In this document: positions 3,359 to 17,336 of the stretch, piece by piece
Position numbering within the stretch: the first letter of the stretch is position 1
Layout of the letters: each line of letters begins with the position of its first letter
Virus record (IMG/VR): IMGVR_UViG_3300032313_000391
Span: 1-20,702 of that record
Length of the DNA stretch: 20,702 nt
Direction: 5' to 3' (one strand)
From: a virus
Translations under genes and position numbers: made by a program
Notes under the pieces: model-generated
Seen by the model: only the letters and a program-made list of their open reading frames with translations
Told to the model about the DNA's origin: nothing
The model's database searches: none

Positions 3359-6300
3359 TTAGATGGCAGTGGTGGTTATTAGTTTCGATTTAATACCAGA
3401 ATAGATTCGATACTCGTGCTCAGTGCTTGATCGCTTATTGTCAATTACTAGTTTGGCATCAGAATCAATAATAATCTTATTAGTTCCTGTATAACTCTTA
3501 TAGATAGTTGATGGGTCAATGCTGTAGTAGTTATTTGAGGCAAGGATCAAGGTTCCTTCCCATAAGAAGTCCCCAGTTAGCCAGTAATCCCATTCAATAT
3601 CTCTTGGAAGAATATACTTTACTCCAAACCAACTTCTATACTCATCTTGCGTGACATCCTGAAGGTTGCTTGACTCATAGTAAGAAATTGTATTAAATAG
3701 CAAAGGGCCATTCAGATTGATCAAACCAGCCCTATTCTTAAAGTCTAATACCTTTGGAAAAGATATTCCCAAGAAGGCCCACTCCTTTACGGTAATGACT
3801 GGCTCTTTTACAATCTTCCCATTAAGGTAAAACTTAATTCCATTTTCTAGTCTTCCAGTATTTGCATCTAAAGCATAAATTTTTGCTCTTTGTCCAGATG
3901 GGTGAATAGCAGATAGATAAAACTTTATGTGTCGGTCTCTTGACTTAATCTCAAACACCTCTACTGATCCATAAGAAAAAGCATCTTTGTCATATCTGAC
4001 TGCCATCTGCATAGCCATAACTTTAAAATTATTAGATTTTTCTTTATTAACAGCAATTGACAAACCTCTGTTAATCGTTGGGTCCATAGTGCCCTTTACT
4101 TCTATTCCAGTGTATCTAGTTAGATATAGATAAGGGGATGTTCCTTTGTATATTGTAAATGGATTTTCACTTTTATAGTCATAATAGAATCCAGACTTTT
4201 TATATGGAAATAGTTGGTGTCCAAACCTTGTTCCAACTGGATTGGGAGAGGTGTTATTGAATGCTTGAGAACAGTATTCAAGTGTTCTGACTGAAACCTT
4301 ATTTTTTAATATTCCCTTAACATTAAACTCAAGATGGGTAACAATTGCAAGATCAAGGTTGCTTACATCTTTTGGAGTATAGATAACCATGTTATCCACA
4401 ACCTCATACTTGGTACTTCTCCAATTATCCCCTGGAATAACAAATGAATCATTTGATGGTTTTTCTATATTTATAAAATTATCTTCTGAAAGGTTTGCAC
4501 CATTTTTAACATATTGAAAAGTAATATAAGATTTTACAAGAGAGTTTGAGGTGTCGTACTTATAGTTTCTAAATGCCCTATCTCTTAAATCTGTATAGTC
4601 TAAATACCCTGTAAAAAGTTGGTTGTCAAGTGATGAGTAGTCTCTTTGCACGGGAACATTGTATTCATCATAAAGTTCTTTATATGTCCAAGACCCTAAC
4701 TGTTCTTCTTCTACGAAAACAGATGGTGCTGGATAGTTTATATTAAACTGAATAAAGTCTAAATCGTAGTAAGGTTTATTTTTACTATCTGTAACATACT
4801 TTGCAAAATATGTAAGAGGAAGATAGTCTTCCCAATATCCCTGAATATCTATATCTAATGAGTATAGTCCAAAATTTATTAGTGGAGACAAGGTATAACT
4901 TGCCGTGTGTGCTTGAAGAGTATTTGCTGATCCTAAAGATGGCAGTCCTGAGTCAATTATAGAGTCCCATTCTCCTGGATTATTACCAAAATAGTCATCT
5001 GTTGAGTTGTAATCTACATCTGGTGTTTGCAAATACTCAATAAATACGCTGTCATTTTCTATAACAATTCCTTTTTCATTAAAAAATTCAAGGATAGACT
5101 TATGGTTTCTAGATGTACAAAACCCCACCTTGTATATTTTCCCAGAAAACGTTTCTGTTGGGACGAAACTTCCTCCAACATAAAAACTAAGACTGCTTGC
5201 ATTACCAAAGAAAGAAGCAACATTGCCACCAAAATAACGAGAAATAGTTTCTACATCTACCCCTACAGAAAACATCTCATTAACATTTATTGCAGACAAA
5301 GTTAATAAAGTTTCTTCTAAATCGTTATACCTTAAGGTGTAGGATATGGATGTTCCTATAGAAGAAATCTCAAAGTAGTTTGAGGATGTTTTTGATTCTG
5401 CTTTAAATAAAATTTGTTTTGTTGTTGGAATAGATGTAAACTTAAATGATCCATAAAAAGATTTTACTTTTTCTTTTAAAAAGTTTAAACTGTCAAAGTA
5501 TATATAAGATTCTTGTCTATTCCCAAAAGAAAAGAACACAGATTCTTCATTTTGCAAAGGAAGTAGTTCGGAATACAAATCTTCCAGATATCCAGACCCT
5601 AATATAATTTCTGGCAACTCATATTCTGGAGTAGACAAAAGGTTATTATCTGTTTTTAAGTTATCAACTATCGCTTGAGACCAGTTTCCTATGTTTGGGT
5701 ATGAGTAGTTATTTGCATAGTTAGCAAACGGATAATCAACATAGATAGATGAGCCACTGTATGCTTTATTTATACCCTCTGGTATCTCTACTCCCTGACC
5801 ATAAACAAATCGTTTTTTAGCCAAGATTATTGGGACTTGGTAAGTGTACAATGCAACACAGTCAAGTTCGACTGGAGAAACATCATCGTAAGCATAAAAA
5901 CCAATCCAGTCTTGATTTCTATCGTCAGAATCTAGGCTAGTTGGAAACGACAACTCTTCAGTTAGATAGTTTAAAGATATAACCTCTTCACCATTTACAA
6001 GTAATGAAGAATTGTTTTCGCCAACCCTTATGTGTGTCAGCATTGGCCTTGTCCACTCTCCAACATAATAAGATCCAAAGTTTAATCCAACTTTTAAGAT
6101 TAAGAATGGGCCTTCTACGTATAAACCGTCAGTAGAGCCAAGCGGTCCAAGGATTCTTCTCTTTGTTATTGAGTCTGAGTTAATCCTTAGCCAGGCCTCT
6201 AGAGTATATTCTTTGTATTGTCCATCTGCTCCTAAAAATCCTTGTGCTGGAATTATAAAAGATGGCTTTGGTGCTGGATCAACAACGTTTATTTTTCCGT

Positions 6301-7396
6301 TCATTGCTGCATGATTTTTACAAACATAATAAATAGAGTCTGGAGCATTTTCTGGAACTACCCAAACAATGTTTCCATTTTCAGTACCGTTATTCTCAAC
6401 TCCATTGTTGTATTGATTTTGAGCATTGTATGCTCCTTCTATCCTCTGTATTGAAAATGGGTGACCAGGGGCATTTATCTGGAAAGTGTAGGTTGAACCA
6501 CGTGTAACTGTTATTGTTGGGTTTTGTGTACCAGCAAAAACATAGGAAGACATTCCAGAAGAAGAAACGTCGTATGTCATTCCATTAGAGTTTGAATTTG
6601 GTAAAAGTTTCGTTAGGCCAGTTGCCCCATATACTAAAGGAATGCCAGTATTTTTTGCCATTAGGCTTTCATTAGATGTTAGGTAGTAACCTTTTTTATC
6701 TTGACGACCATACGCAACCGCTTCAACTCCATAGGTGGGCTCTATTGATATATCGTTTGGCAAAAAGTTACCTTTAACGCCAAGAGAAGATGCGTTAAAC
6801 TCTTCTGACCATTGACCAACAGAAACTCCATTAATTAAAAACTCGTAGTCCTCTACATTATTTCCTTGTCCAATATAGTTAATTTTTATAACAATTCTAA
6901 ATGTTGCGTTTTCATCTGGTGTATCAAATGTTTCTGAAATAAAAACCCATCTTTCTCTTACTGAAGAAAAATATGTTTTTAATCTTTGTATTGTGCTACC
7001 ACTAACTGTGTCATCATACTCATATCCAATCTCAAAACTGTAAACATAAGCACTAAGTGAATTAATGAAGGCTCCTATTGAAAATGTCGACAACTCTTTG
7101 TTTAATGAAGAAAAGTTAGCAATGTCTTTGCTTATACAAACTATCTGGCCGAAATCGTTGTTAGTTAAATCCCCTGTTATTTTTGTTATTGAACTTTCTA
7201 TAAAAGGAGTATTTTCAACAAGAGAGTATTCGCTTGCAGAGCCATTTACTGGTTCTTCCCAATACTCAAGATCCGCAAGATTCCTTTGATTTTCATCAAT
7301 TAAACTTATATAGTCTGCCTTATCATCCAGTGCCCAAAAAGCCATTGGGTGTTCAGCATATATTTTCTCTGCATAGAGGTTTGATGGATTAGACAT
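3359..7396 (-). CDS. Large virion-type protein with LamG-like domains and a cupredoxin domain
   Basis: At 1345 aa this is by far the largest gene here. The N-terminus (HPMAFWALDD, 16-25) opens a LamG/concanavalin-like beta-sandwich reaching about 230. Residues 283-374 form a cupredoxin-like domain with PGHPFSI and YYVCKNHAAMNGKI. A clear LamG domain follows at about 392-520 (YTLEAWLRI, SSLLVNGEEV, DWIGFYAYDD). Further LamG-like segments are likely near 615-765 and in the last 250 residues. LamG domains bind glycans or proteins, so a tail-fibre, adsorption or particle-decoration role is the best guess. There is no signal peptide or transmembrane helix. It sits alone between the reductase and head genes with its own extended -10 box 9 nt before the ATG. 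The virion role is inferred; the LamG and cupredoxin calls rest on motifs. Confidence 0.8.
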   Translation of the reverse strand: MSNPSNLYAEKIYAEHPMAFWALDDKADYISLIDENQRNLADLEYWEEPVNGSASEYSLVENTPFIESSITKITGDLTNNDFGQIVCISKDIANFSSLNKELSTFSIGAFINSLSAYVYSFEIGYEYDDTVSGSTIQRLKTYFSSVRERWVFISETFDTPDENATFRIVIKINYIGQGNNVEDYEFLINGVSVGQWSEEFNASSLGVKGNFLPNDISIEPTYGVEAVAYGRQDKKGYYLTSNESLMAKNTGIPLVYGATGLTKLLPNSNSNGMTYDVSSSGMSSYVFAGTQNPTITVTRGSTYTFQINAPGHPFSIQRIEGAYNAQNQYNNGVENNGTENGNIVWVVPENAPDSIYYVCKNHAAMNGKINVVDPAPKPSFIIPAQGFLGADGQYKEYTLEAWLRINSDSITKRRILGPLGSTDGLYVEGPFLILKVGLNFGSYYVGEWTRPMLTHIRVGENNSSLLVNGEEVISLNYLTEELSFPTSLDSDDRNQDWIGFYAYDDVSPVELDCVALYTYQVPIILAKKRFVYGQGVEIPEGINKAYSGSSIYVDYPFANYANNYSYPNIGNWSQAIVDNLKTDNNLLSTPEYELPEIILGSGYLEDLYSELLPLQNEESVFFSFGNRQESYIYFDSLNFLKEKVKSFYGSFKFTSIPTTKQILFKAESKTSSNYFEISSIGTSISYTLRYNDLEETLLTLSAINVNEMFSVGVDVETISRYFGGNVASFFGNASSLSFYVGGSFVPTETFSGKIYKVGFCTSRNHKSILEFFNEKGIVIENDSVFIEYLQTPDVDYNSTDDYFGNNPGEWDSIIDSGLPSLGSANTLQAHTASYTLSPLINFGLYSLDIDIQGYWEDYLPLTYFAKYVTDSKNKPYYDLDFIQFNINYPAPSVFVEEEQLGSWTYKELYDEYNVPVQRDYSSLDNQLFTGYLDYTDLRDRAFRNYKYDTSNSLVKSYITFQYVKNGANLSEDNFINIEKPSNDSFVIPGDNWRSTKYEVVDNMVIYTPKDVSNLDLAIVTHLEFNVKGILKNKVSVRTLEYCSQAFNNTSPNPVGTRFGHQLFPYKKSGFYYDYKSENPFTIYKGTSPYLYLTRYTGIEVKGTMDPTINRGLSIAVNKEKSNNFKVMAMQMAVRYDKDAFSYGSVEVFEIKSRDRHIKFYLSAIHPSGQRAKIYALDANTGRLENGIKFYLNGKIVKEPVITVKEWAFLGISFPKVLDFKNRAGLINLNGPLLFNTISYYESSNLQDVTQDEYRSWFGVKYILPRDIEWDYWLTGDFLWEGTLILASNNYYSIDPSTIYKSYTGTNKIIIDSDAKLVIDNKRSSTEHEYRIYSGIKSKLITTTAI
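6278..6529 (-). other. Cupredoxin-like domain inside the 1345-aa protein
   Basis: The segment covers about residues 290-373. It keeps a complete set of type-1 copper ligands: His312 in GHPF, Cys359, His362 and Met365. The spacing Cys-x2-His-x2-Met is that of amicyanin. Cupredoxin-like modules with GHPF and CxxH motifs occur in marine phage tail proteins, but whether any bind copper is not known to me. Confidence 0.7.
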
Positions 7397-7405
7397 TATA
7401 AGTCT

Positions 7406-7414
7406 ATTTTATCA
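7406..7414 (-). promoter_or_regulatory. Candidate extended -10 promoter for the 1345-aa gene
   Basis: The minus strand reads TGATAAAAT (TG-N-TAAAAT) 9 nt before the ATG at 7396, overlapping the end of the reductase gene. No Shine-Dalgarno sequence lies between it and the start codon, so the message would be leaderless or nearly so. Confidence 0.4.
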
Positions 7415-7416
7415 TA

Positions 7417-9447
7417 CTAAGATACTTTTATTTCACAGTAATCTGTAGTGCAATAAGCCTCGCCTTGAGCCTCAAGATTATCTACGCCGTCATAAATTGC
7501 ACCAAAATCAATATGCTTCAACTTGCCAACATATGACTCATACTGCTCTTCAGTAATCTGAGTATACGGTTGTTGAGGATAAACAGTATTTCCCATTGGA
7601 AGGAATGATACTGCCTTCAACTGTCCCTCGTACATATTGAGTGCTGGAACAATATGCTTTGATTCTGTTTCCTTATCAAATGACAATGTTACAGAAACAC
7701 CATTGTCAGACCAGTACTTCTGAGCAGTTGCAGCAAGAGCAATTTTTTCAAATAATGTTACTTCCTTTTCAGATCTCGGATGACCTGACTTAATAGGGAA
7801 ATAGACTACTGAAGTATTTGCTGACACTACGTCGTCTTCAACTGTGTACCCTGCTGCTTTGAACAAATGAATCATTGGATCTGTAGTGCCAAATCTAATT
7901 GCACGAAGGAAGAAGTTTCCTCCAGGACCCCAGTGAACCCCAGGCGTTGCACCAGAAAGAATTGAAACTGATCCTGATGGCTTAACTGTTGTTACACGAA
8001 TTGATTCACGAACACAAAGCCATTCTGAATACTGATGATCGTAGTGACGAATCTTGTTATATCCTTCATCCATCCACTCACGAACAATTGGCAAACCCTT
8101 TTGATCTGCAAATGATGCGATACCTGTTAGTGATGTACCAATACGACGGTTACGTTGCATGATACCGTTTGTTTGTGGCCAGTGTGTTGGAACAAGTGTT
8201 ACAGTCTTTCCGTAAAGGTATGCAAACTTAAGGGTACGCAGGAAGTCCTCCTTAGATTCATGACGATTCAAGTGCACTTCTACAAGTGTACATAATTCAT
8301 ATGATTCCAATGGCTGCTCCGCACATGGGTTAAATCCCATCACACGATAATCCTTACCGTCTGGCGCATCCTTTAGTCGTCCATAATTACGAGCAACATC
8401 AAGCCAGATAAAACCTGGTTCTCCATTCTCCGTAATTAAATCTACATAGTCTTCGTACTTTGTTCCTACTTCTGCTGAAATAGAATTATTAGACATCCAA
8501 GCCCAACCTGGATTCTCTGGATCAAATGAGTTACGTTCTGGGAATAGTTCTGAATTCTTTAGATTCATAAATGTTTCATCACCTGCATTACCCAAAGCAA
8601 GAGTTGCTGATCTACGAACATTGCCTGATACCACGCAGGTACCAATAAGGTTCACAAGGTCTACAATAGCACGAGAGTCTAGTGTTTCTCCGCCTCTGGA
8701 GCCGATTACACGGTCTATCTGGTCGTGCAACTTGATAAGAGGTGCAGGCCCTGATGCAACGCCTCCAAAGCCCTTAATAGGGGCTCCAAGGGGTCTGATC
8801 AAATCATAGTTAAACTTCTGAATGCTCTGGTTTGCTCTAAGGTATGAGTTGATAAGAAGTCTGACTGACTCTACCCATCCTTCACGAGTGTCTGGGATTT
8901 CGAATATCTGTTCTGGTTCTGTCGGAGCATAGATTGAGAAATTCTTATCCTGTCCCACTGTATCAAACCCTACACCAATACCAAGCATTAATGCATCCAT
9001 AACCCAAGCAAATAGGGCTCCTGGATCATTCTTATCAAGGTCCTTTGTGGAAACCATTGCACAGTTTTGTAGTGCTGCTGAGTTCTTTTTCTCCATAGTC
9101 ATAGGAGTTCCAAATGCCCACATACCACGACCTGGTGGAGTCCACTTTAATTCAAACATTCTTTGGAATGCTTCTTGTGCAGACTTCTGAGCCTTGTAAT
9201 CATTCCATGGTAGACGGTTTTCTTTAGCATGATTCTTCTGTACTGAATACATACCCTCGATTACACGACGACAAACTTCATGCCATCTTTCCTTAGTTCC
9301 ATCTTCCTTCATGCGAGAATATGTACGAATAAAAGTAATTTCTCCAAGTGAATTTTCTGCTGCATCCTTAAACCCAAATGGGCTTTCTTGGTTCTTGTAT
9401 TTTTCTACGAAGTCCTCTGGAAGTTTAAAACTAAAAAAATCTGACAT
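7417..9447 (-). CDS. nrdJ: Adenosylcobalamin-dependent ribonucleoside-triphosphate reductase (class II)
   Basis: This 676-aa enzyme reduces ribonucleoside triphosphates to deoxynucleotides with a thiyl radical generated from coenzyme B12. It matches the monomeric RTPR type of Lactobacillus leichmannii, which is about 739 aa. The active-site loop NPCAEQPLESYELC holds Asn373, radical Cys375, Glu377 and redox Cys386. The partner redox cysteine is Cys129 in ALQNCAMVS. The C-terminal shuttle pair is Cys666 and Cys671 (CTTDYC), with the four-residue spacing known from RTPR. VKPSGSVSILSGATPGVHWG (about 489-508) is a conserved class II motif. All key residues are present, so it should be active if the host supplies B12 and thioredoxin or a similar reductant. 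It has its own promoter-like site and an AAAGGA ribosome site 11 nt before the ATG. No cobalamin riboswitch fits the 99-nt leader. Confidence 0.95.
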   Translation of the reverse strand: MSDFFSFKLPEDFVEKYKNQESPFGFKDAAENSLGEITFIRTYSRMKEDGTKERWHEVCRRVIEGMYSVQKNHAKENRLPWNDYKAQKSAQEAFQRMFELKWTPPGRGMWAFGTPMTMEKKNSAALQNCAMVSTKDLDKNDPGALFAWVMDALMLGIGVGFDTVGQDKNFSIYAPTEPEQIFEIPDTREGWVESVRLLINSYLRANQSIQKFNYDLIRPLGAPIKGFGGVASGPAPLIKLHDQIDRVIGSRGGETLDSRAIVDLVNLIGTCVVSGNVRRSATLALGNAGDETFMNLKNSELFPERNSFDPENPGWAWMSNNSISAEVGTKYEDYVDLITENGEPGFIWLDVARNYGRLKDAPDGKDYRVMGFNPCAEQPLESYELCTLVEVHLNRHESKEDFLRTLKFAYLYGKTVTLVPTHWPQTNGIMQRNRRIGTSLTGIASFADQKGLPIVREWMDEGYNKIRHYDHQYSEWLCVRESIRVTTVKPSGSVSILSGATPGVHWGPGGNFFLRAIRFGTTDPMIHLFKAAGYTVEDDVVSANTSVVYFPIKSGHPRSEKEVTLFEKIALAATAQKYWSDNGVSVTLSFDKETESKHIVPALNMYEGQLKAVSFLPMGNTVYPQQPYTQITEEQYESYVGKLKHIDFGAIYDGVDNLEAQGEAYCTTDYCEIKVS

Positions 9448-9484
9448 AATATGTATCGTCCTTTCAAAAACGGATTAAGACCTA

Positions 9485-9493
9485 AGTATAGCA
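9485..9493 (-). promoter_or_regulatory. Extended -10 promoter (TGCTATACT) for nrdJ
   Basis: The minus strand reads TGCTATACT. The expected start point lies about 30 nt before the nrdJ ATG, leaving room for the AAAGGA site at 9459-9464. A weak -35 candidate (TTGCTT) lies 15 nt upstream. One arm of an 8-bp inverted repeat abuts the box. Confidence 0.5.
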
Positions 9494-9517
9494 GAGTTTT
9501 ATGAAAAGCAAAACTCT
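9493..9517. repeat. Inverted repeat next to the nrdJ promoter
   Basis: AGAGTTTT and AAAACTCT form a perfect 8-bp stem around a 9-nt loop. It lies between the dehydrogenase and nrdJ and touches the extended -10 box. No T-run follows on either strand, so it is a poor intrinsic terminator; an operator or weak attenuator is possible. Confidence 0.5.
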
Positions 9518-9546
9518 CCCCTAAATAACAGGTTGAGACTTAAGAA

Positions 9547-10209
9547 CTATTTGCCACTGAGGATATGATTTATCTCTATATGATTTATGTTAACATGTTT
9601 AGGTAGACTTGCTACCCATCTTATAGATTCAGCCATATCCTCAGCAGTTATAGCAATCTCTCTTTTTTCTTCTTGTGTATCAATTGTTCCTGGACAAATT
9701 TCAGTAACTTTAATTCCATACTCTGGAAACTCTAGCCTCATAGTATCTACAAGAGCCATCATTCCTCTTTTAGCATTAGTATAATTTCCACCAGTTCTGT
9801 ATGGGAACTTACCACCCAGAGAACTAATAAAAATAATTGTAGGGGATTCTGACTTCTTCATAGAAGGAACAAAGAGTTGTGATAGGTACATTGGTCCAGA
9901 TACGTTTATGTCATAGGCTCTTCTAAAGTTGTCCATTGTTTCATTGATAATCTGAGTTGGCCCTGATCCTCCACCTGCATTGTTAACAAGCAAGTCAAGA
10001 GTTATATTGCTATATTTTTCATAAAACTTTTTAATTTCACTTTGACTTGTTATGTCCATTTGATAGACTTCAACATTTTCAGAAACTAGACCTGACACTT
10101 TAGAAAGATCTCTTGAAACGGCAATAACTTTATATCCATTTTCAGACAAAAGTTTTACTGTTGCATACCCTACACCTTTGCTTGCACCAGTTATAATTGC
10201 TGTTTTCAA
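9547..10209 (-). CDS. Short-chain dehydrogenase/reductase (SDR)
   Basis: This 220-aa protein is a classical NAD(P)-dependent SDR. It has the nucleotide-binding TGASKGVG (7-14), Asp52 in MDITS, NNAGG (76-80), Asn102, the catalytic Ser129/130 in FISSLGG, and Tyr143-x3-Lys147. The PGTIDT stretch at 173-178 fits the family. Arg33 after the second beta strand (VSRD) suggests a preference for NADPH, which is inference. The start is a TTG directly after the stop of the oxygenase gene; the TAA before it excludes a longer reading, and no later Met would keep the glycine motif. No Shine-Dalgarno sequence is seen, so translation probably depends on coupling. It is the last gene of the oxygenase operon and may oxidise or reduce a hydroxylated or carbonyl product. 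Its substrate is unknown. Confidence 0.9.
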   Translation of the reverse strand: MKTAIITGASKGVGYATVKLLSENGYKVIAVSRDLSKVSGLVSENVEVYQMDITSQSEIKKFYEKYSNITLDLLVNNAGGGSGPTQIINETMDNFRRAYDINVSGPMYLSQLFVPSMKKSESPTIIFISSLGGKFPYRTGGNYTNAKRGMMALVDTMRLEFPEYGIKVTEICPGTIDTQEEKREIAITAEDMAESIRWVASLPKHVNINHIEINHILSGK

Positions 10210-10941
10210 TTACATGCTCTGACTGTGATTAAAGTCCATGCCATTGTGTATCCAATGACTAGGAACCATATATTTAAAACCAGACTTTACTACATGTGCC
10301 GTGTGAAAATATGGTGGATACGCTGGGAATATAATTACGCTATTTGCTTTAGGCTTTACACCAAAGTCAATAGCCTTTTCAGCAACTGCTATGTCATAGT
10401 CTAAATCTACTGCTGGAGCACCTCTTACCCATCCGTCAGATGATGTCCATCCACCATCATAGTCTTTTAATTGAAATGATATTTCTCCACCTTCGCAGTC
10501 ATCATTTAAATACATTACCAAAGAATATCTGAGGGTCTGATCTCCATCTAACTGATCAAAGTGAGCGCCCATACCCATGCCAGTATTATACTTTTTTATG
10601 TTAAATGTTGGGAATATCTTTGGCTCATCAAAGTCACCTAGTGATGAAGCATAGTCTTTGCATACGTTATACAGAGTAGACATTATAGAGTTGTAAATGT
10701 ATTTGCTTTTTTCTGCTACTTCTCCATCAAGTCTATTAATTGCATCAATGTCAAAGGTCTTTGTCTCACCATATATAAAGTTTTTATCATTTGAAGATGT
10801 CCAGTTTTTCCAAACATTAACATCCGACGCAGTGTCATTTTCTATTTCGTCTAATTCTTTTAAAACTTTTTGAAAATTTGCAAAATCTTCAATAGCATCT
10901 GTGTAGTAGTAAACCTTGGGATCTAACTTTTCTACATTCAT
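10210..10941 (-). CDS. 2OG/Fe(II) oxygenase, prolyl-4-hydroxylase superfamily (copy 6)
   Basis: This 243-aa protein is a jelly-roll oxygenase that would couple 2-oxoglutarate decarboxylation to substrate hydroxylation. The iron ligands are His127-x-Asp129 (GAHFDQLD) and distal His213. The usual 2OG-binding Arg is Lys223 (SGFKY), ten residues after the distal His. The core strand YLNDDCEGGEISF is typical of the superfamily. It differs from its neighbours by an insert (about 160-195, GGWTSSDGWVRG) between the GGE strand and the distal His. It starts 9 nt after the preceding oxygenase gene with GGAG in the gap, and its stop directly abuts the dehydrogenase start. The family is clear; the substrate is unknown. 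Confidence 0.88.
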   Translation of the reverse strand: MNVEKLDPKVYYYTDAIEDFANFQKVLKELDEIENDTASDVNVWKNWTSSNDKNFIYGETKTFDIDAINRLDGEVAEKSKYIYNSIMSTLYNVCKDYASSLGDFDEPKIFPTFNIKKYNTGMGMGAHFDQLDGDQTLRYSLVMYLNDDCEGGEISFQLKDYDGGWTSSDGWVRGAPAVDLDYDIAVAEKAIDFGVKPKANSVIIFPAYPPYFHTAHVVKSGFKYMVPSHWIHNGMDFNHSQSM

Positions 10942-10950
10942 TATTTTCTC

Positions 10951-11613
10951 CTAGTATCTGTTATTTTTGTAGTGATCTTTTTCTTTTATAAATCCAACTG
11001 TAACATATCGGATTGTTCCGATTCCCACATGCTTTACCCCATGCTCATATTCTTCGTTTCCTGGAAAAACAAGAAGTGTTCCTGGAGTTGGCTTTATGTC
11101 TGAATTTTCTTTATTTTTAAAGAATAAGGCACCATCAACATAGTCATCATTAATATAAAGAATTGTTGCATATCTAATTGCTGGATCTGTATGCTGATCT
11201 GTGTGTGACTTTAACTCTACACCAGGCTGCATTCTTTGCAAAGTGCCAAACCCTGCAAGTTCCAGAGAGTTATTGCTTGATGCAACAAGAGCCCCCAGTC
11301 TATCCTGAAGTGTTCTGCTTATTGCGTGATGAACAATGCTTAGATTTTTATCTTGCCATCCTTGAGTTATTTCAAACTTACCTTCTTTAACTAAGTTTTC
11401 TACGTCGTCTCTTCCAAACTTTTCCATACAAAACCTAGCAAGATTTTTTGTATACTCTATAGACCAGTCTTCATTTGGGGTTGTTTTAATTATTTCTAAA
11501 ATTGTTTCTAGTTCGTCTTCTTGTAAAAAATTTTCTACAACCAATACGTGATCGTGCAAAACCTCAGTCTTGTATCCAGCATCATCAAACTCTTTTTTTA
11601 AAAAAACTTCCAT
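10951..11613 (-). CDS. 2OG/Fe(II) oxygenase, prolyl-4-hydroxylase superfamily (copy 5)
   Basis: This 220-aa protein has iron ligands His137-x-Asp139 (KSHTDQH) and distal His191 (EHGVKHV), with 2OG-binding Arg202 (IRY). The distance from distal His to Arg is 11 residues rather than the 10 of its neighbours, so the last loop has one extra residue. The ILYINDDYVDGALFF strand is diagnostic of the superfamily. The first 90 residues do not resemble the other copies. The ATG follows the preceding stop without a gap, with GAGG upstream inside the previous gene, indicating coupled translation. Intact active-site residues argue that it is functional. The substrate is unknown. Confidence 0.88.
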   Translation of the reverse strand: MEVFLKKEFDDAGYKTEVLHDHVLVVENFLQEDELETILEIIKTTPNEDWSIEYTKNLARFCMEKFGRDDVENLVKEGKFEITQGWQDKNLSIVHHAISRTLQDRLGALVASSNNSLELAGFGTLQRMQPGVELKSHTDQHTDPAIRYATILYINDDYVDGALFFKNKENSDIKPTPGTLLVFPGNEEYEHGVKHVGIGTIRYVTVGFIKEKDHYKNNRY

Positions 11614-12360
11614 TTACAAATCCTCAACTTTATACTTATTTCCATCAGCGTCTAACTTCCATCCTTGCTTTAAAAGTTCTTGCCACTCTGCTCTTTCAAT
11701 TTCTTGCTTTGCTCTCGTTTCTTTCATTTCTGCAGCCCAAGCATCTCTTAATTCTTGTGGATATGCAGACTCTTCTCTATCATCCCAGAAAGATCCGATA
11801 GTGTATCTTACTCCACTTTCTATTAAGGATACTTCGTGCATATTGTTAAATCCCCCGTCAAACACAGCGAGCATACCGACCTCTGGCTTAATCTCTATAT
11901 CTTGATCTGGGAACTTAAGAAGACCACCTTCAAAATTATCATTTAAATATAAGAATCCTGCATACCTGCTTCTAGTAAATGCTCCTGAGTTTCCATGCTC
12001 ATCAGTATTGTCAGAATGAACTCTTGCGTAGGCTCCTGGCTCCCATTTTTGTGTATGGTACCCAATCTTAGAAATAACTTTAGGGTCTAGGTCATGTACT
12101 GATGCAATGGCTTCTGGCATTTTTGCCTCAATATCTGAAAATATAGTTGGAGACAATCCAGCATCAAGCACTTCTTGATCGTTGTCTTGTGGAAGAACAG
12201 AAGAGTATGACTCATAAAAAGAAATTGGCATCCAAGACATCTTACCGCTAACTGCTTGTGCATCTAAAGCATTAATCATTTTTTGACAAGTTTCTTTATC
12301 TATAAAATTATTATATACGACTATGTCTTTTGTTATTCTTTTTTTATTGTTTAGATTCAT
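11614..12360 (-). CDS. 2OG/Fe(II) oxygenase, prolyl-4-hydroxylase superfamily (copy 4)
   Basis: This 248-aa protein has iron ligands His115-x-Asp117 (RVHSDNTD) and distal His175 (NMHEVSL), with 2OG-binding Arg185 (SGVRY). GFLYLNDNFEGGLLKFP is the core strand motif. A short insert after the HxD motif (DEHGNSGAFTRSR) may shape the substrate entrance. The last 50 residues are a charged, Glu/Lys/Trp-rich helix beyond the jelly roll, a tail the other copies lack, possibly for partner binding. The ATG overlaps the preceding stop (ATGA) and has AGGAG upstream. All catalytic residues are present. The substrate is unknown. Confidence 0.88.
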   Translation of the reverse strand: MNLNNKKRITKDIVVYNNFIDKETCQKMINALDAQAVSGKMSWMPISFYESYSSVLPQDNDQEVLDAGLSPTIFSDIEAKMPEAIASVHDLDPKVISKIGYHTQKWEPGAYARVHSDNTDEHGNSGAFTRSRYAGFLYLNDNFEGGLLKFPDQDIEIKPEVGMLAVFDGGFNNMHEVSLIESGVRYTIGSFWDDREESAYPQELRDAWAAEMKETRAKQEIERAEWQELLKQGWKLDADGNKYKVEDL

Positions 12361-13028
12361 GGCTTTCTATCTCCTGTATGCTCTGTTATTTCCCAGAAGA
12401 ATGGGCAGGTGTATCTAATACCACTCTTAATCTCTGTCACTCCGTGAACATAGTTCATATCCCCTGGGAAAAAATACGCTGCTCCTTTTTTAGGTTTAAA
12501 CTGTACACCTTGTAGGGGAAAATACAATTCTCCACCTTCATAGTCTTCATTTAAATAGAAAAGGCTTGAAAGATCATAGTTTGGGAAATCATTCGGAAGT
12601 CCAGCATCTGGACCCTCGTGTAATTCTTTGTCTGCGTGAGGCTTCTGAAACTGCCCTGGGAGCCATCTGACAATGGTTGTGCCAGTAGGAGTAACCTTTA
12701 CCTTGTAGAACTCTTCAACGATTGGTTTAAGTCTTTGAAACAGGCCTGCAATTACTGGAGCAATTGTTGGATCATTTTTATCTAGAGTTGGACTAGTTGC
12801 TACTCTGTCTTTCCAGTATTCAGAGTCATAAACTACTGTACCGTTTTCGTTAACATGGCTTTGGGTTACATCCCAGATTGTCAAAGACTTTGCAGCCTTC
12901 TCTAAAAACTCTATTTCTTCTTGAGTCATAAAATTTTCTAATTCAACAATCATCTCTTTACCATTGCCAAACCATCCAGAAGGCGTCATAGATGGCTTTC
13001 TGAATACGACATCTCCCTTATCACTCAT
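12357..13028 (-). CDS. 2OG/Fe(II) oxygenase, prolyl-4-hydroxylase superfamily (copy 3)
   Basis: This 223-aa protein has iron ligands His131-x-Asp133 (KPHADKE) and distal His195 (YVHGVTE), with 2OG-binding Arg205 (SGIRY). LFYLNEDYEGGELYFPLQG is the core motif, close to known phage P4H-like proteins. Residues 62-90 (VVYDSEYWKDRVA) form an extended substrate-side segment. Its ATG has no Shine-Dalgarno sequence. Instead an extended -10 box, TGGTATAAT, ends 6 nt before it inside the last codons of the upstream gene, so this gene may also be expressed as a leaderless message. The stop overlaps the next start as ATGA. Confidence 0.9.
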   Translation of the reverse strand: MSDKGDVVFRKPSMTPSGWFGNGKEMIVELENFMTQEEIEFLEKAAKSLTIWDVTQSHVNENGTVVYDSEYWKDRVATSPTLDKNDPTIAPVIAGLFQRLKPIVEEFYKVKVTPTGTTIVRWLPGQFQKPHADKELHEGPDAGLPNDFPNYDLSSLFYLNEDYEGGELYFPLQGVQFKPKKGAAYFFPGDMNYVHGVTEIKSGIRYTCPFFWEITEHTGDRKP

Positions 13029-13030
13029 AA

Positions 13031-13759
13031 TTACATTATACCATTCTGTTTGTTTGATGTATTATCTATTACTGATAATTTTAAAACTTTTGCTTCATGA
13101 GAACCAATAGAATTTCCATCTTGATCTACAGCATCTCTGTACCAGTCTGTCCATTTACCAGAAGAGTTTATTTCTTGTGCAGCAGAACCATAGGTCATAT
13201 TTGCCTCTAATCTTTTTCTGTCGCTATCTTCATAATCTACCATCTTTATAGATGTGTTGTTAAGATTTGAAATAGAGATTGGAATTATTGTTGCTAATGG
13301 AGTTCCTGACTTAATGACTATGTTTTTGTTTGAAGATTTTGCTTTTATTGCTAGTGGTAATGGGTTGTCGTAAAAAGAAGTGCTAATTAAATTAGACATT
13401 GTTTCAAAGTCGTTATTAAAATAATTAACTGGATTAATTGTTAGAATACTAACATTTGGCTCTGTTCGAAATACTAACCCAGTATCAAAACTGATAGATG
13501 ACTGCCCTCTTCCACCATACGAACCTTGTGGTGCTGAAATGATTTTGATGTGATCTTGTGTTTGATCATTTACTCCATCCCACAGAAACTCTACGTCCTT
13601 TTTGCAAAAAAGATTCCAGCCAATAACATTTGATTGTGTCACTGGGAAACATCTATAGGCATGCCCCTCTGATGTTTCGTCCATCCAGTCTCTTTTTATG
13701 GACATTGGGGCTAAGTCAAATGATGAACCATTCATCTTTTCAACAGATATGTTAAACAT
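13031..13759 (-). CDS. Oxygenase-associated protein, DUF6065-like
   Basis: This 242-aa protein has no function I can name. The stretch WMDETSEGHAYRCFP (25-39) followed by NVIGWNLFCKKDVEFLW (44-60) resembles the DUF6065 family as I remember it; that identification needs a profile search. A conserved-looking IKSGTPLATIIPI lies at 149-161. The same three landmarks (Cys-Pro region, GW/GY strand, GTP-x5-P) recur in the 258-aa protein encoded at 14452-15228, so the two are probably distant paralogues. It is beta-rich with no signal peptide or membrane segment. It overlaps the preceding oxygenase stop as TAATG and ends 2 nt before the next oxygenase start, so it should be co-expressed with both. Confidence 0.7.
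   Translation of the reverse strand: MFNISVEKMNGSSFDLAPMSIKRDWMDETSEGHAYRCFPVTQSNVIGWNLFCKKDVEFLWDGVNDQTQDHIKIISAPQGSYGGRGQSSISFDTGLVFRTEPNVSILTINPVNYFNNDFETMSNLISTSFYDNPLPLAIKAKSSNKNIVIKSGTPLATIIPISISNLNNTSIKMVDYEDSDRKRLEANMTYGSAAQEINSSGKWTDWYRDAVDQDGNSIGSHEAKVLKLSVIDNTSNKQNGIM
13035..13043 (-). promoter_or_regulatory. Internal extended -10 promoter (TGGTATAAT) in the oxygenase operon
   Basis: The minus strand reads TGGTATAAT, with the last base 6 nt before the ATG at 13028. It overlaps the final codons (Gly-Ile-Met) of the DUF6065-like gene. Transcription would begin at or beside the ATG of the third oxygenase. The same TGGTATA core occurs at 3348-3356 and 15974-15982. Confidence 0.5.
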
Positions 13760-14442
13760 TACTCATTATCCCATTTTGCATCATACATGTCTGGTGTATG
13801 AAACTTTTTGCTATAGTCAAGCATTGTAACAATAGAGTACTTTGTTCCAGAATGAACTGGCATTGCTTGATGAGGATACATGAAGTTAGAAGGGAAAATA
13901 TAAAGATCTCCAGCCTCTGGCTTAATGTTTAAGCCCTGCAATCTAAAAAATAGTTCTCCACCTTCGTAATCATCATTAATGTATGCAACAAGAGACACAG
14001 TACAGTTGTAAGAGTATCCGTGATCATGGTGCTCTTTAAAGTGTTGACCTGGACCATACTTAATAAAATTAAATGCTTCCCAATACTTTAGTGGCATAAT
14101 GTTGTAATCTTTTCTATAGTCTTCAACTGCTGCTGCCTGAGCATCGTAGACATCTTGCCAAATAGCCTGTAACTTAATAGACTCTTCACTAGGGTCTAAC
14201 TCTATGTCTGTTTTTTTAAATTTAAAATCAACGCAATCTCTGTAGTCTGGCATTAACTGCTGATATCCAACATATGCTGGCATCCAGTGATATCTTTTAC
14301 CTTCTTTTGATAACTCTCCATATCCTGCAACAGATCCAAGTGTCTTTTCAATCCTATTAATTAAATCAAATTCTTTTTTTATGACACCCTTATAGCATTT
14401 TATGCCATTTCCTAAATCAAGTTTTTCTGTCCATGTCTGCAT
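13759..14442 (-). CDS. 2OG/Fe(II) oxygenase, prolyl-4-hydroxylase superfamily (copy 2)
   Basis: This 227-aa protein has iron ligands His138-x-Asp140 (KEHHDHG) and distal His191 (YPHQAMPV), with Lys201 (SGTKY) where Arg is usual. Collagen prolyl 4-hydroxylase also uses a Lys ten residues after its distal His, so this is compatible with activity. It is the closest relative of copy 1 (15228-15941). Both carry DCVDFK, EAFNF-x-KY, YNCTVS, YINDDYEGG, FPSN and SGTKY in the same order, which indicates duplication. An AAGGA site lies in the 9-nt gap before the ATG. It is flanked on both sides by the DUF-type partner genes. The substrate is unknown. Confidence 0.9.
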   Translation of the reverse strand: MQTWTEKLDLGNGIKCYKGVIKKEFDLINRIEKTLGSVAGYGELSKEGKRYHWMPAYVGYQQLMPDYRDCVDFKFKKTDIELDPSEESIKLQAIWQDVYDAQAAAVEDYRKDYNIMPLKYWEAFNFIKYGPGQHFKEHHDHGYSYNCTVSLVAYINDDYEGGELFFRLQGLNIKPEAGDLYIFPSNFMYPHQAMPVHSGTKYSIVTMLDYSKKFHTPDMYDAKWDNE

Positions 14443-14451
14443 TTTTATTCC

Positions 14452-15228
14452 TTATCTATACTCTCGTCTTGACCATACTTTATTCTTATATACTCCGCCG
14501 TCAGGCTTTCTATAAATTCTCATATTAGATACCATTTTATCATAAATTGTAGACTGATCCAGTATTTCTATCTCATGATTCCAGTCTTCTCTTTTAAAAG
14601 GAAGAAACTGGATATATGGAGTACCTGCGGGGATTGTCCCTTCCCAGCCTTCTGGGATAAAAAATGGAAAACTTCCAAGCAAATGTACTTTATCTGAATC
14701 AACAATGCCTGTTGTATTTAAAAATGGAAGATCAAACCTATTCATTGGTGTCATAAACAAAGCACTGTATCCTTCTGGAAGTTCTAGTCCCCAATCTGCA
14801 GACCAAGCAAAATGATGAGTATAGTATCCATAGGGATGATGAAACTGTGGCATTGGTGGTCTTTGTGTACAAAAATCTTTATATTTTAAATCTTGAACTT
14901 TAACATCAATTATCCCCTGATCATTTTTAAAAAATGTAAGATCACATGGAGTTTTAAATATATACCCAGTTGAAAATGCATCCATAATTGCAGGACAGGC
15001 TTTCCATGTAGGAATTTTTCCATAGTCATCTACAGTTCCTTCTTTTGGAAATGGACAAACCTCTTTAGGTGCTTTGTAATACTCTCCATTTGGCATTTTA
15101 GCAAACCTATCTGCATTTTTATACCAGTCTGGAATAACACTTTGAGTAGGTGATGGGACAGATATGCTATCTTTATTTAGCCATGTTCTAAAAGATCTAA
15201 ATATGGCTATCTTAGATTCTATACTCAC
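14452..15228 (-). CDS. Oxygenase-associated protein, 258 aa, related to the DUF6065-like gene
   Basis: The function is unrecognised. Landmarks are VIPDWYKNA (31-39), WKACPAIMDAFSTGYI (75-90), PYGYYTHHFAWSADWG (132-147), FLNTTGIVDSD and IPAGTPYIQFLPFKREDW (199-216). I recall proteins with this IPDWYK...CP...DA..TGY pattern from marine and freshwater phages, often near 2OG oxygenases. The pattern parallels the 242-aa protein at 13031-13759, so the two probably share a fold. It has a His-rich centre (His130, His131, His138, His139) that could bind metal, which is speculative. The start is a GTG at 15228 overlapping the oxygenase stop (TAGTG); no good internal ATG keeps the N-terminal motif. No strong Shine-Dalgarno sequence, so coupled translation is likely. 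Confidence 0.7.
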   Translation of the reverse strand: MSIESKIAIFRSFRTWLNKDSISVPSPTQSVIPDWYKNADRFAKMPNGEYYKAPKEVCPFPKEGTVDDYGKIPTWKACPAIMDAFSTGYIFKTPCDLTFFKNDQGIIDVKVQDLKYKDFCTQRPPMPQFHHPYGYYTHHFAWSADWGLELPEGYSALFMTPMNRFDLPFLNTTGIVDSDKVHLLGSFPFFIPEGWEGTIPAGTPYIQFLPFKREDWNHEIEILDQSTIYDKMVSNMRIYRKPDGGVYKNKVWSRREYR

Positions 15229-15941
15229 TACTTGTGGCCAAGTTCGTTTATATCTGTCATTACGACAACACAGTACTTTGTTCCTGACTTCATTGGAAGA
15301 GAGGCATGCTCATATATGTAGTTTGAAGGGAAAACTGCAATATCCCCCACCTTTGGCTTATATACAAGATTGTCTAGCCTTGGAAACTTTAAGTCTCCCC
15401 CTTCATAGTCATCATTAATGTAGATAACAGCAGAAACGGTACAATTATATCTTGGTCCGTGATCTGCGTGAATATTAAAGTGTGTGCCTTCTCCTTCGTA
15501 CTTTACAAAATTAAAGGCTTCATAATATACAACATTGATCCCCCAATATTTAGCATAGTCATCTATGCAATATTTAAGTTTTTGATATATTTCTTCATGT
15601 AAATCAATTAGTTCTGAGTTTGTTTTACTTTTTGGACCAAGGTTTTCTTGCTTATATTTAAAGTCTACGCAATCTCTTGCTTTTTTAATTGGAGTTGAAG
15701 AGTTTGTTACCTGTGCCTCTGACCATCTATATGGTCCGCTACCGCTTAGATTTGATTCAAGTGTACTTATGTATCTATTTGCGTCATCTAAAGAGAATGT
15801 GTTGTGATAAACATGCAAACCCAGACCAAGATTTTCAGTAGTGATACCATGATCTAAGCCCCTAAGAGGAACTCTGTTTGATGCTGTTTCCGATCTATCT
15901 TTTGTAAACCAGGCATTATTATTTTCATCATAATCTACCAT
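15228..15941 (-). CDS. 2OG/Fe(II) oxygenase, prolyl-4-hydroxylase superfamily (copy 1, first gene of operon)
   Basis: This 237-aa protein has iron ligands His158-x-Asp160 (NIHADHG) and distal His212 (YEHASLP), with 2OG-binding Lys222 (SGTKY). AVIYINDDYEGGDLKFP is the core strand. It is a close paralogue of copy 2, sharing DCVDFK at 90-95 and EAFNFVKY at 141-148. It opens the nine-gene operon: an extended -10 box lies about 33 nt upstream and AAAGGAGAA precedes the ATG by 6-7 nt, the strongest ribosome site in the operon. The stop overlaps the GTG of the next gene. The substrate is unknown; the protein would act in the cytoplasm, having no export signal. Confidence 0.9.
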   Translation of the reverse strand: MVDYDENNNAWFTKDRSETASNRVPLRGLDHGITTENLGLGLHVYHNTFSLDDANRYISTLESNLSGSGPYRWSEAQVTNSSTPIKKARDCVDFKYKQENLGPKSKTNSELIDLHEEIYQKLKYCIDDYAKYWGINVVYYEAFNFVKYEGEGTHFNIHADHGPRYNCTVSAVIYINDDYEGGDLKFPRLDNLVYKPKVGDIAVFPSNYIYEHASLPMKSGTKYCVVVMTDINELGHK

Positions 15942-16422: not shown

Positions 16423-16450
16423 ATTATACCTTAACAATCGCATCCTGCAA
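16423..16450 (-). promoter_or_regulatory. Candidate promoter TTGCAG-16 nt-TATAAT before the 128-aa gene
   Basis: The -35 is TTGCAG (16445-16450) and the -10 is TATAAT (16423-16428) with a 16-nt spacer. It overlaps the end of the Phe-Phe-Pro protein gene. This is the best bipartite sigma-70-type match noticed in the window. Confidence 0.5.
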
Positions 16451-17336
16451 ACGAACCACAACTGTCATACGCACATGAACAACATTGGGTGTTCTGGAAG
16501 CAGATAACTGTGCATGGACCGCATGGGAATGAATATGAGTAACTTCCATTAGGACTACACGCAAAGTATGGGAAGAATGGTCCGAATGATGGGAAGAACG
16601 GGAAGAACGGGAAGAATGGTGGGAAGAACGGGAAGAATGGTGGGAAGAACGGGAAGAATGGTGGGAAGAATGGTGGGAAGAATGGTGGGAAGAATGGGAA
16701 GAATGGTGGGAAGAACGGTGGGAAGAACGGAAAGAATGGAGCAATAGTGGTTACGCTATTAGAGGCTGGAGATGTTCCAGAATTTCCATTTGCGTTAGTT
16801 GCATAAACAGTATATGTTTGAGCAGTATTTGCTTCTTGTGTAACTGTTGTAGATGTTCCTGCAACTGAGCCAGACTTTCCATCTGATGACGCCCAGGTAT
16901 AAGAAGTAATTGCTGAGCCACCATTGGATGGTGCTGACCAGTTTACTGTATCTTGAACAACGCCTGCTGTAGCAGTCGGTGCAGATGGTGTTGCTGGAAC
17001 TGTTGTTACGGTTACCGCAGAAGAGGCAGATGATGCAGCAGAAGTTCCTGCAGCATTGGTTGCTGTTACTGTAAATGTTGGCGTTGCTGCAGAAGCAATT
17101 CCAGTTACAACAAGAGGAGACGATGCTCCAGTTGCTGTCTGTCCTGTGCTTGCTGTTACTGTAAAGGATGTAGCAGCAGGAGAAAGTGCTGGTAGAGAGA
17201 ATGCTACAGAAACTGCGCCATTGTTAAATGCCCGTCCAGTTCCTACGTTTGTTCCAGTTACACCTGTTGGTGCTAATGGTTCCAAAAAGTCATTTGACGC
17301 TTGGGACTTCTTACCTATCTTTTTACCTGCTGCCAT
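16431..17336 (-). CDS. Fibronectin-III-like protein with Phe-Phe-Pro repeat and Cys-rich tail
   Basis: This 301-aa protein has three parts. Residues 20-198 hold two Fn3-like beta-sandwiches (APTGVTGTNVG, then VPATPSAPTATAG and TYTVYATNANGNSG), of the type found in phage tail proteins. Residues 200-258 are almost pure FFP and FFPP units. Residues 260-301 hold ten cysteines (including QCCSC and CDC) among Gly, Ser and Tyr. There is no signal peptide; the N-terminus is basic (AAGKKIGKK). It most likely belongs to the tail or particle surface, since it follows the fibre genes. AGGAG precedes the ATG. The chosen frame is supported by the coherent Fn3 sequence upstream. The repeat prolines and the nearby P4H-like genes suggest an enzyme-substrate link, but nothing here proves it. 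Confidence 0.8.
   Translation of the reverse strand: MAAGKKIGKKSQASNDFLEPLAPTGVTGTNVGTGRAFNNGAVSVAFSLPALSPAATSFTVTASTGQTATGASSPLVVTGIASAATPTFTVTATNAAGTSAASSASSAVTVTTVPATPSAPTATAGVVQDTVNWSAPSNGGSAITSYTWASSDGKSGSVAGTSTTVTQEANTAQTYTVYATNANGNSGTSPASNSVTTIAPFFPFFPPFFPPFFPFFPPFFPPFFPPFFPFFPPFFPFFPPFFPFFPFFPSFGPFFPYFACSPNGSYSYSFPCGPCTVICFQNTQCCSCAYDSCGSFAGCDC
16563..16739 (-). repeat. Tandem 9/12-nt repeat encoding FFP and FFPP units
   Basis: The minus strand repeats TTCTTCCCA, often with an extra CCA or CCG codon. On the plus strand it is a purine-rich tract of GGGAAGAA blocks separated by TGG or CGG. Phe is nearly always TTC, so the DNA is more uniform than the protein requires, pointing to recent expansion. 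The units become irregular at the downstream end (SFGPFFPYF). Confidence 0.9.

Follow-up and report, generated by a model that had tools for sequence, protein, structure and literature searches.

A conserved phage cassette of 2-oxoglutarate oxygenases and DUF6065 proteins linked to a PFF-repeat protein, its candidate substrate

The 20.7-kb IMG/VR virus record IMGVR_UViG_3300032313_000391 (positions 1 to 20,702, referred to throughout as the window) carries an operon of six 2-oxoglutarate (2OG)/Fe(II) oxygenases, two related partner proteins and a short-chain dehydrogenase/reductase (SDR). The oxygenases and their DUF6065 partners are linked, in two divergent phage groups, to a gene for a protein with tandem Pro-Phe-Phe (PFF) repeats, which lies upstream of the first oxygenase gene on the same strand and had been overlooked in the first-pass annotation. 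Based on sequence, it is proposed with even confidence that the cassette is a late-gene unit for virion-protein maturation that would hydroxylate prolines, and perhaps phenylalanines, of the adjacent PFF protein, sometimes with subsequent glycosylation. Held somewhat less firmly is the broader suggestion of a multi-enzyme phage system that hydroxylates (on Pro, perhaps Phe/Tyr), and sometimes glycosylates, an as yet undescribed class of PFF-repeat virion proteins with the aid of dUTPase-fold adaptors, comparable to the pathways for collagen or hydroxyproline-rich glycoproteins. The first-pass annotation had suggested that the oxygenases share one target; a common target is plausible, and the PFF-repeat protein is a concrete candidate for it.

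The window encodes a prohead protease, a portal, tail-fibre genes and a class II ribonucleotide reductase (RNR); the cassette is located among the tail-fibre genes, and the RNR comes after it. Nine same-strand genes had been placed at 9547-15941, and all nine were recovered there, on the minus strand. The functional unit probably includes, further upstream, the PFF-repeat gene (16431-17336). The features, in the order of transcription, are as follows.

16431-17336, minus strand: PFF-repeat protein of 301 aa, the proposed substrate; adjoins oxF in all 69 non-truncated relatives
16569-16739, minus strand: PFF repeat tract, with 15 PFF and 24 Pro in 57 residues
15999-16385, minus strand: small open reading frame (ORF) of 128 aa that separates oxF from the PFF gene, in a slot that varies among relatives
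15228-15941, minus strand: oxF, 2OG/Fe(II) oxygenase (PF13640, 43.6 bits; orthologues keep the HxD/H/K site)
14452-15228, minus strand: dufL, partner protein (phrog_7084), a distant dufS homologue (hhalign 93%, E 4e-7)
13759-14442, minus strand: oxE, 2OG/Fe(II) oxygenase (PF13640, 56.9 bits; triad)
13031-13759, minus strand: dufS, DUF6065 (PF19541, 96.9 bits), with a predicted dUTPase-like beta-clip fold (AlphaFold2, Foldseek)
12357-13028, minus strand: oxD, 2OG/Fe(II) oxygenase, the most conserved (dN/dS 0.02; PF13640, triad)
11614-12360, minus strand: oxC, 2OG/Fe(II) oxygenase (PF13640, triad, dN/dS)
10951-11613, minus strand: oxB, 2OG/Fe(II) oxygenase (PF13640, triad, dN/dS)
10210-10941, minus strand: oxA, 2OG/Fe(II) oxygenase (PF13640, triad)
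9547-10209, minus strand: SDR (PF00106, 145 bits; TGASKGVG and YTNAK motifs in the sequence), an optional member

The coordinates bear out the tight packing described earlier: oxF and dufL overlap by 1 nt (TAGTG), as do oxE and dufS (TAATG), and oxD and oxC overlap by 4 nt (ATGA), while dufL and oxE are separated by 9 nt, dufS and oxD by 2 nt, oxB and oxA by 9 nt, and the oxC-oxB and oxA-SDR pairs by none. The operon genes are presumably co-transcribed; a promoter and terminator scan found sites no more frequent than in shuffles.

The cassette is conserved as one unit rather than as scattered genes. A search of IMG/VR with dufL returned 316 relatives, and among the best 80 of these 316, which were fetched, the core order oxF, dufL, oxE, dufS, oxD, oxC, oxB, oxA was kept in 80/80; the recurrence of gene set and order in metagenomic phage contigs, proposed as a check in the first-pass annotation, was observed for these core genes. 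The PFF gene lies upstream of oxF in 69/69 of these relatives with enough upstream sequence, the other 11 being truncated there. A nucleotide search with the operon against annotated phages gave no match.

The link between the repeat and the oxygenases was also seen when the search started from the repeat. As the window clade encodes the prolines by CCA/CCG, a DNA pattern with CCY codons was chosen, and it found 35 viral loci. Many of these come from other phages, where divergent oxygenases (27-43% identical) and a DUF6065 protein follow the repeat. Among the 15 PFF loci with 5 kb or more of sequence surrounding the repeat, at least one oxygenase lies within 3.5 kb in 12 and at least two in nine, whereas collagen-like GPT repeats taken through the same search procedure have at least one oxygenase in 8/37 and at least two in 1/37. 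The reverse test used the profile of a second type of DUF6065 protein (type b), which gave 80 loci from a second, divergent phage group (51-86% identical to the type-b query). Oxygenases were present in 80/80, and a [FYHW]FPP tract was found at the DNA level in 66/80, at 129-3146 bp from the nearest oxygenase. In nine of the 14 loci without a tract, the sequence upstream of the first oxygenase is shorter than 700 bp, and in one (L207) it is 0.9 kb long; in the other four (L174 and L200-L202, three of them mutually close relatives), which have more than 1 kb upstream, a Gly-Pro-X collagen-like protein adjoins the first oxygenase. Trials of the PFF pattern on bacterial genomes gave mostly simple repeats in arbitrary frames.

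The PFF protein consists of an Ig/Fn3-like N-terminus (weak PKD_6 match), tandem PFFP/PFFPP repeats and a Cys-rich C-terminus, and it is the most proline-rich protein in the window (12.6%). Across all repeats, Pro is fixed, and of the two aromatic positions the first is F/Y/H/W, with F in nearly every case at the second. The repeat persists on differing scaffolds, which include Fn3, PASTA or other domains or a bare tail. PFF proteins had no match among annotated phages, and no description of PFF repeats in phages was found in the searched literature. In some PFF proteins a Hint/intein-like domain follows, recognised through weak Pfam matches that stay below cut-off, as in L058:2603-3907 and L098:595-1929 and, by matching ends, L101, L114 and L122; this extension hints that the repeat protein may undergo autoprocessing or crosslinking. 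At 16424-16744, an alternative frame of the tract gives a His/Ser-rich ORF (HSSHHSSH), a repeat-frame artefact, and the antisense tract ORFs of relatives (WWEEWWEE-type) are likewise frame artefacts.

All six proposed oxygenases exceed the PF13640 cut-off (35-57 bits against 27), a genome search concurs with the assignment, and the HxD motif, the distal His and the K/R 10-11 residues later are invariant across the six. Their mutual divergence was evident from 21-27% identity to oxA over the alignment. The YxNDxxxGG strand that had been ascribed to all six is intact in four, with oxB reading YINDDYVDGA and oxD reading YLNEDYEGG. Within each gene, the triad is invariant in 54-82 orthologues apart from three exceptions: Lys in 71/76 for oxF, a single K-to-R substitution in oxE and a single gap in oxD. 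When the copies are compared with their closest relatives, the median dN/dS is 0.02-0.14, a sign of strong purifying selection, and every copy is therefore read as maintained; on sequence criteria all copies look catalytically intact. At the oxA position, relatives carry one of two versions that have diverged from each other, the one about 80% and the other about 45% identical.

A profile of the six proteins found its best solved-structure matches in Bacillus prolyl 4-hydroxylase (P4H; 3ITQ, 5HV0), prolyl 3-hydroxylase 1 and PBCV-1 P4H (5C5T), followed by PHD2 and lysyl hydroxylases, with a Naegleria Tet-like enzyme also present; the oxE family alone matched Bacillus P4H first, then LH3 and PBCV-1 P4H. 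This ranking favours a peptidyl substrate, and sequence proximity to solved prolyl hydroxylases makes the six putative members of that functional class.

Oxygenase number varies within the conserved order. The 56 relatives with a complete core carry six oxygenases in 13 cases, seven in 38 and eight in five, the additional gene usually lying between oxD and oxC. About half of the relatives also have a 151-aa protein without a Pfam match between dufS and oxD (L007:3158-3610 and equivalents), which is absent from the window. Single phage contigs of L101 (128 kb) and L107 (152 kb) hold 13 and 11 PF13640 genes, respectively. The earlier view that six copies are unusual has to be qualified, given up to 13 PF13640 genes in whole relatives and the 24 2OG oxygenase genes of cyanophage S-SCSM1, whose function is described as uninvestigated (PMC9602691).

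The two partner proteins are related, as had been noted, since the dufL profile aligns with that of dufS (hhalign 93%, E 4e-7). The latter is a DUF6065 member by profile (96.9 bits against a cut-off of 26.6); dufL itself has no Pfam match, and its structure model is poor (pLDDT 69) and insufficient by itself. The AlphaFold2 model of dufS (pLDDT 86) was compared with the PDB by Foldseek, and all 50 matches listed are dUTPases, 48 of them at E<=0.001, with E down to 5e-5 and TM score by target of 0.5-0.73 among the matches listed. Neither dUTPase motif III (ID..Y.G) nor motif IV (R.AQ) occurs in any of 165 dufS-like proteins; the signature conserved in the family is instead RxWMD...AYxC.P...N..G. 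Therefore, DUF6065 is read as a dUTPase fold without dUTPase chemistry, either lost or never had, and is perhaps a trimeric adaptor.

Neither dufS nor its type-b counterpart had a match among annotated phages, and dufL had only 25-30% identical homologues, in haloarchaeal hafunaviruses. In two of these, HF1 and HRTV-21 (L087, L088), the dufL homologue and a class II RNR are divergently oriented neighbours, adhesin/tail-fibre genes lie close by, and the stretch shown contains no gene annotated as an oxygenase. In Pseudomonadota, DUF6065 was found as a stand-alone chromosomal gene in 25/398 sampled genomes (about 6%); it also occurs in Caulobacter vibrioides among the control genomes. No oxygenase was found in the 9-14 kb stretches around 13 Pseudomonadota homologues (L264-L276), so DUF6065 also exists outside the cassette, and an obligate pairing with oxygenases was ruled out. 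No description of DUF6065 was found in the searched literature.

The remaining genes are accessory. The SDR is of the classical type, with the adh_short profile and the TGxxxGxG and YxxxK motifs all satisfied, and it is present in 17/37 complete relatives that extend to the RNR. It is therefore regarded as an accessory gene, and two readings of the first-pass annotation, the SDR as a regular member of the operon and a core step in which it processes a product, are not supported for a gene absent from more than half of these loci. Relatives also differ in what lies between oxF and the PFF gene: L028 has a PF11397 GlcNAc-transferase and an Asp/Arg-hydroxylase-like gene there, L058 a sulfotransferase, an Asp/Arg hydroxylase and a methyltransferase-like gene, L016 a weak alpha-glycosyltransferase match and L010 a further DUF6065. 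A type-b cassette (L104:2069-12115) has interleaved carbamoyltransferase, TauD-family dioxygenase and glutathione-peroxidase-like genes. PF11397 glycosyltransferases were found in the PFF loci L028, L091 and L117 and in none of 630 kb of control loci; no PF11397 (GT60) enzyme, as used in Skp1-type glycosylation, was found among the window proteins.

In the proposed mechanism, the oxygenases would use 2-oxoglutarate, Fe(II) and O2 to hydroxylate the repeat tract, most likely on prolines to give peptidyl-hydroxyproline, and might divide the labour by proline context (PFFP or PFFPP), by 3- or 4-position, or by acting on aromatic residues. The DUF6065 proteins could serve as trimeric adaptors or chaperones that hold either the enzymes or the repeat. 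The Pro/Phe tract, very hydrophobic as encoded, would on hydroxylation become a stiffer rod of higher solubility with exposed OH groups, and in some relatives the PF11397 glycosyltransferases may glycosylate these groups, by analogy with the eukaryotic Skp1 hydroxyproline pathway.

Support for hydroxylation of the PFF protein comes from the PFF linkage in both phage groups, the prolyl-hydroxylase-like matches, the invariant triads, the low dN/dS and the repeat composition. It also comes from the persistence of the repeat on differing scaffolds, the oxygenases reached by searching for the repeat DNA, the PF11397 genes of three PFF loci and the collagen-like protein that takes the place beside the first oxygenase in four type-b loci. 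Several points weigh against it. Because the loci are related to one another and have in part inherited the cassette together, the counts represent a tight, long-lived linkage and not many independent gains; the PFF protein and the oxygenases, both in the tail-fibre region, could be co-inherited without interacting. Two contigs, L092 (31 kb) and L111 (56 kb), encode PFF proteins and no PF13640 gene. At least six enzymes exceed the obvious need for one simple repeat, and a dUTPase-like partner fold is unexpected under a protein-hydroxylation model. PF11397 genes are rare, present in a few of about 200 loci, which rules them out as core genes. Additionally, we infer the virion location of the PFF protein from its position and domains.

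A different substrate among the virion proteins is considered unlikely: the oxygenases would act on tail fibres or collagen-like stalks, or on a number of different proteins, and the PFF protein would be a mere neighbour in the tail module. The location of the cassette among tail-fibre genes agrees with this, as do the oxygenases near collagen-like GPT loci in 8/37 and the S-SCSM1 2OG genes gp129-132 that adjoin tail-fibre genes; however, two or more oxygenases accompany PFF far more often than collagen-like repeats (9/15 against 1/37), and no other window protein matches the PFF protein in proline content. In S-SCSM1 (L397, NC_070962), the 2OG genes gp132, gp131 and gp129 (gp130 being annotated as a minor coat protein) lie at 5681-10145 beside two tail-fibre genes, one of which has about ten RQPR repeats, possibly a similar enzyme-substrate neighbourhood.

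Distinctly less likely is an operon that builds or modifies a host surface glycan, a lipid or a small molecule through hydroxylations, SDR redox chemistry and glycosyl-, sulfo-, carbamoyl- or methyltransferases. Such chemistry is favoured by the SDR in the window and by the genes for glycosyltransferase, sulfotransferase, carbamoyltransferase, methyltransferase-like and TauD proteins that relatives carry in their variable slots. Against it, both the SDR and the transferases are optional, whereas oxygenases, DUF6065 and PFF protein are constant, and the solved structures closest to the oxygenases belong mostly to peptidyl hydroxylases.

Modification of DNA or nucleotides, by TET/JBP-like base oxidation with nucleotide-binding DUF6065 proteins, is very unlikely. 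Its appeal lies in the dUTPase-like fold predicted for DUF6065, in the class II RNR after the cassette, which also neighbours the dufL homologue of HF1-type haloviruses, and in a weak Tet_JBP match of oxD together with the profile match to the Naegleria enzyme. The Tet_JBP match nevertheless falls below cut-off (19.7 against 34.9), dUTPase motifs III and IV are lacking throughout the dufS-like proteins, and the PFF linkage is left unexplained; base hypermodification by the thymidylate-synthase route was ruled out, as no thymidylate-synthase-fold base hydroxymethylase (PF00303) was found in 22 contigs.

An auxiliary metabolic role, in which the oxygenases draw down or signal host 2-oxoglutarate, has been proposed for cyanophage 2OG oxygenases in relation to nitrogen and 2OG levels (PMC3037559) and is extremely improbable here, as such a role could do without six to eight distinct enzymes that are conserved in a set order and tied to a repeat protein, and as the cyanophage proposal depends on cyanobacterial NtcA, whereas the present phages look actinobacterial. 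The portal is about 48% identical to those of large Streptomyces phages, WhiB genes occur in 13/22 related contigs and in only one control genome (Corynebacterium), and psbA occurs in 0/22, ruling out a cyanophage host; by these sequence markers, the hosts are probably Actinobacteria. The carriers are freshwater tailed phages.

Aquatic phages are rich in 2OG oxygenases whose role is described as uninvestigated (PMC9602691), and this locus offers a specific candidate substrate. If hydroxylation of the PFF protein is true, hydroxylated repeat proteins would be added to phage biology, DUF6065 would gain a context, and biotechnology would be offered a set of hydroxylases, prolyl (or phenylalanyl), whose repeat substrate is defined.

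Multiple phage 2OG oxygenases are already known, as are viral P4H enzymes with viral peptide substrates; the ordered module of multiple oxygenases, DUF6065 and PFF repeat was found in no isolate and in no description in the searched literature. The closest viral parallel is PBCV-1 P4H, with which the cassette shares a viral P4H-type 2OG oxygenase, the profile match to 5C5T and a proposed viral proline-rich repeat substrate; the substrates in the 1999 study of that enzyme were reportedly virus-encoded proline-rich repeats. PBCV-1 has one enzyme in a eukaryotic virus, whereas here a single bacteriophage operon encodes six to eight diverged enzymes, accompanied by DUF6065 partners and a PFF repeat. 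As cited in PMC9301287 (Eriksson et al. 1999), the PBCV-1 enzyme acts on viral peptide substrates. The Bacillus anthracis-type P4H (3ITQ, 5HV0) provides the closest solved relatives by sequence, with the prolyl hydroxylase domain and site in common, but it is a cellular gene and the similarity is limited to the core domain. Cyanophage 2OG-Fe(II) oxygenases (phrog_61, phrog_3531) belong to the same superfamily, occur in many copies and in some cases adjoin tail-fibre genes; no fixed cassette is described for them, and the PFF protein and dufS were not detected in annotated phage records. In the Dictyostelium Skp1 pathway, P4H-made hydroxyproline is glycosylated by a GlcNAc-transferase (PMC3515798), a succession that the PF11397 enzymes of some PFF loci resemble; Skp1 modification is eukaryotic, single-site and regulatory, whereas in the phages PF11397 is rare and the substrate putative.

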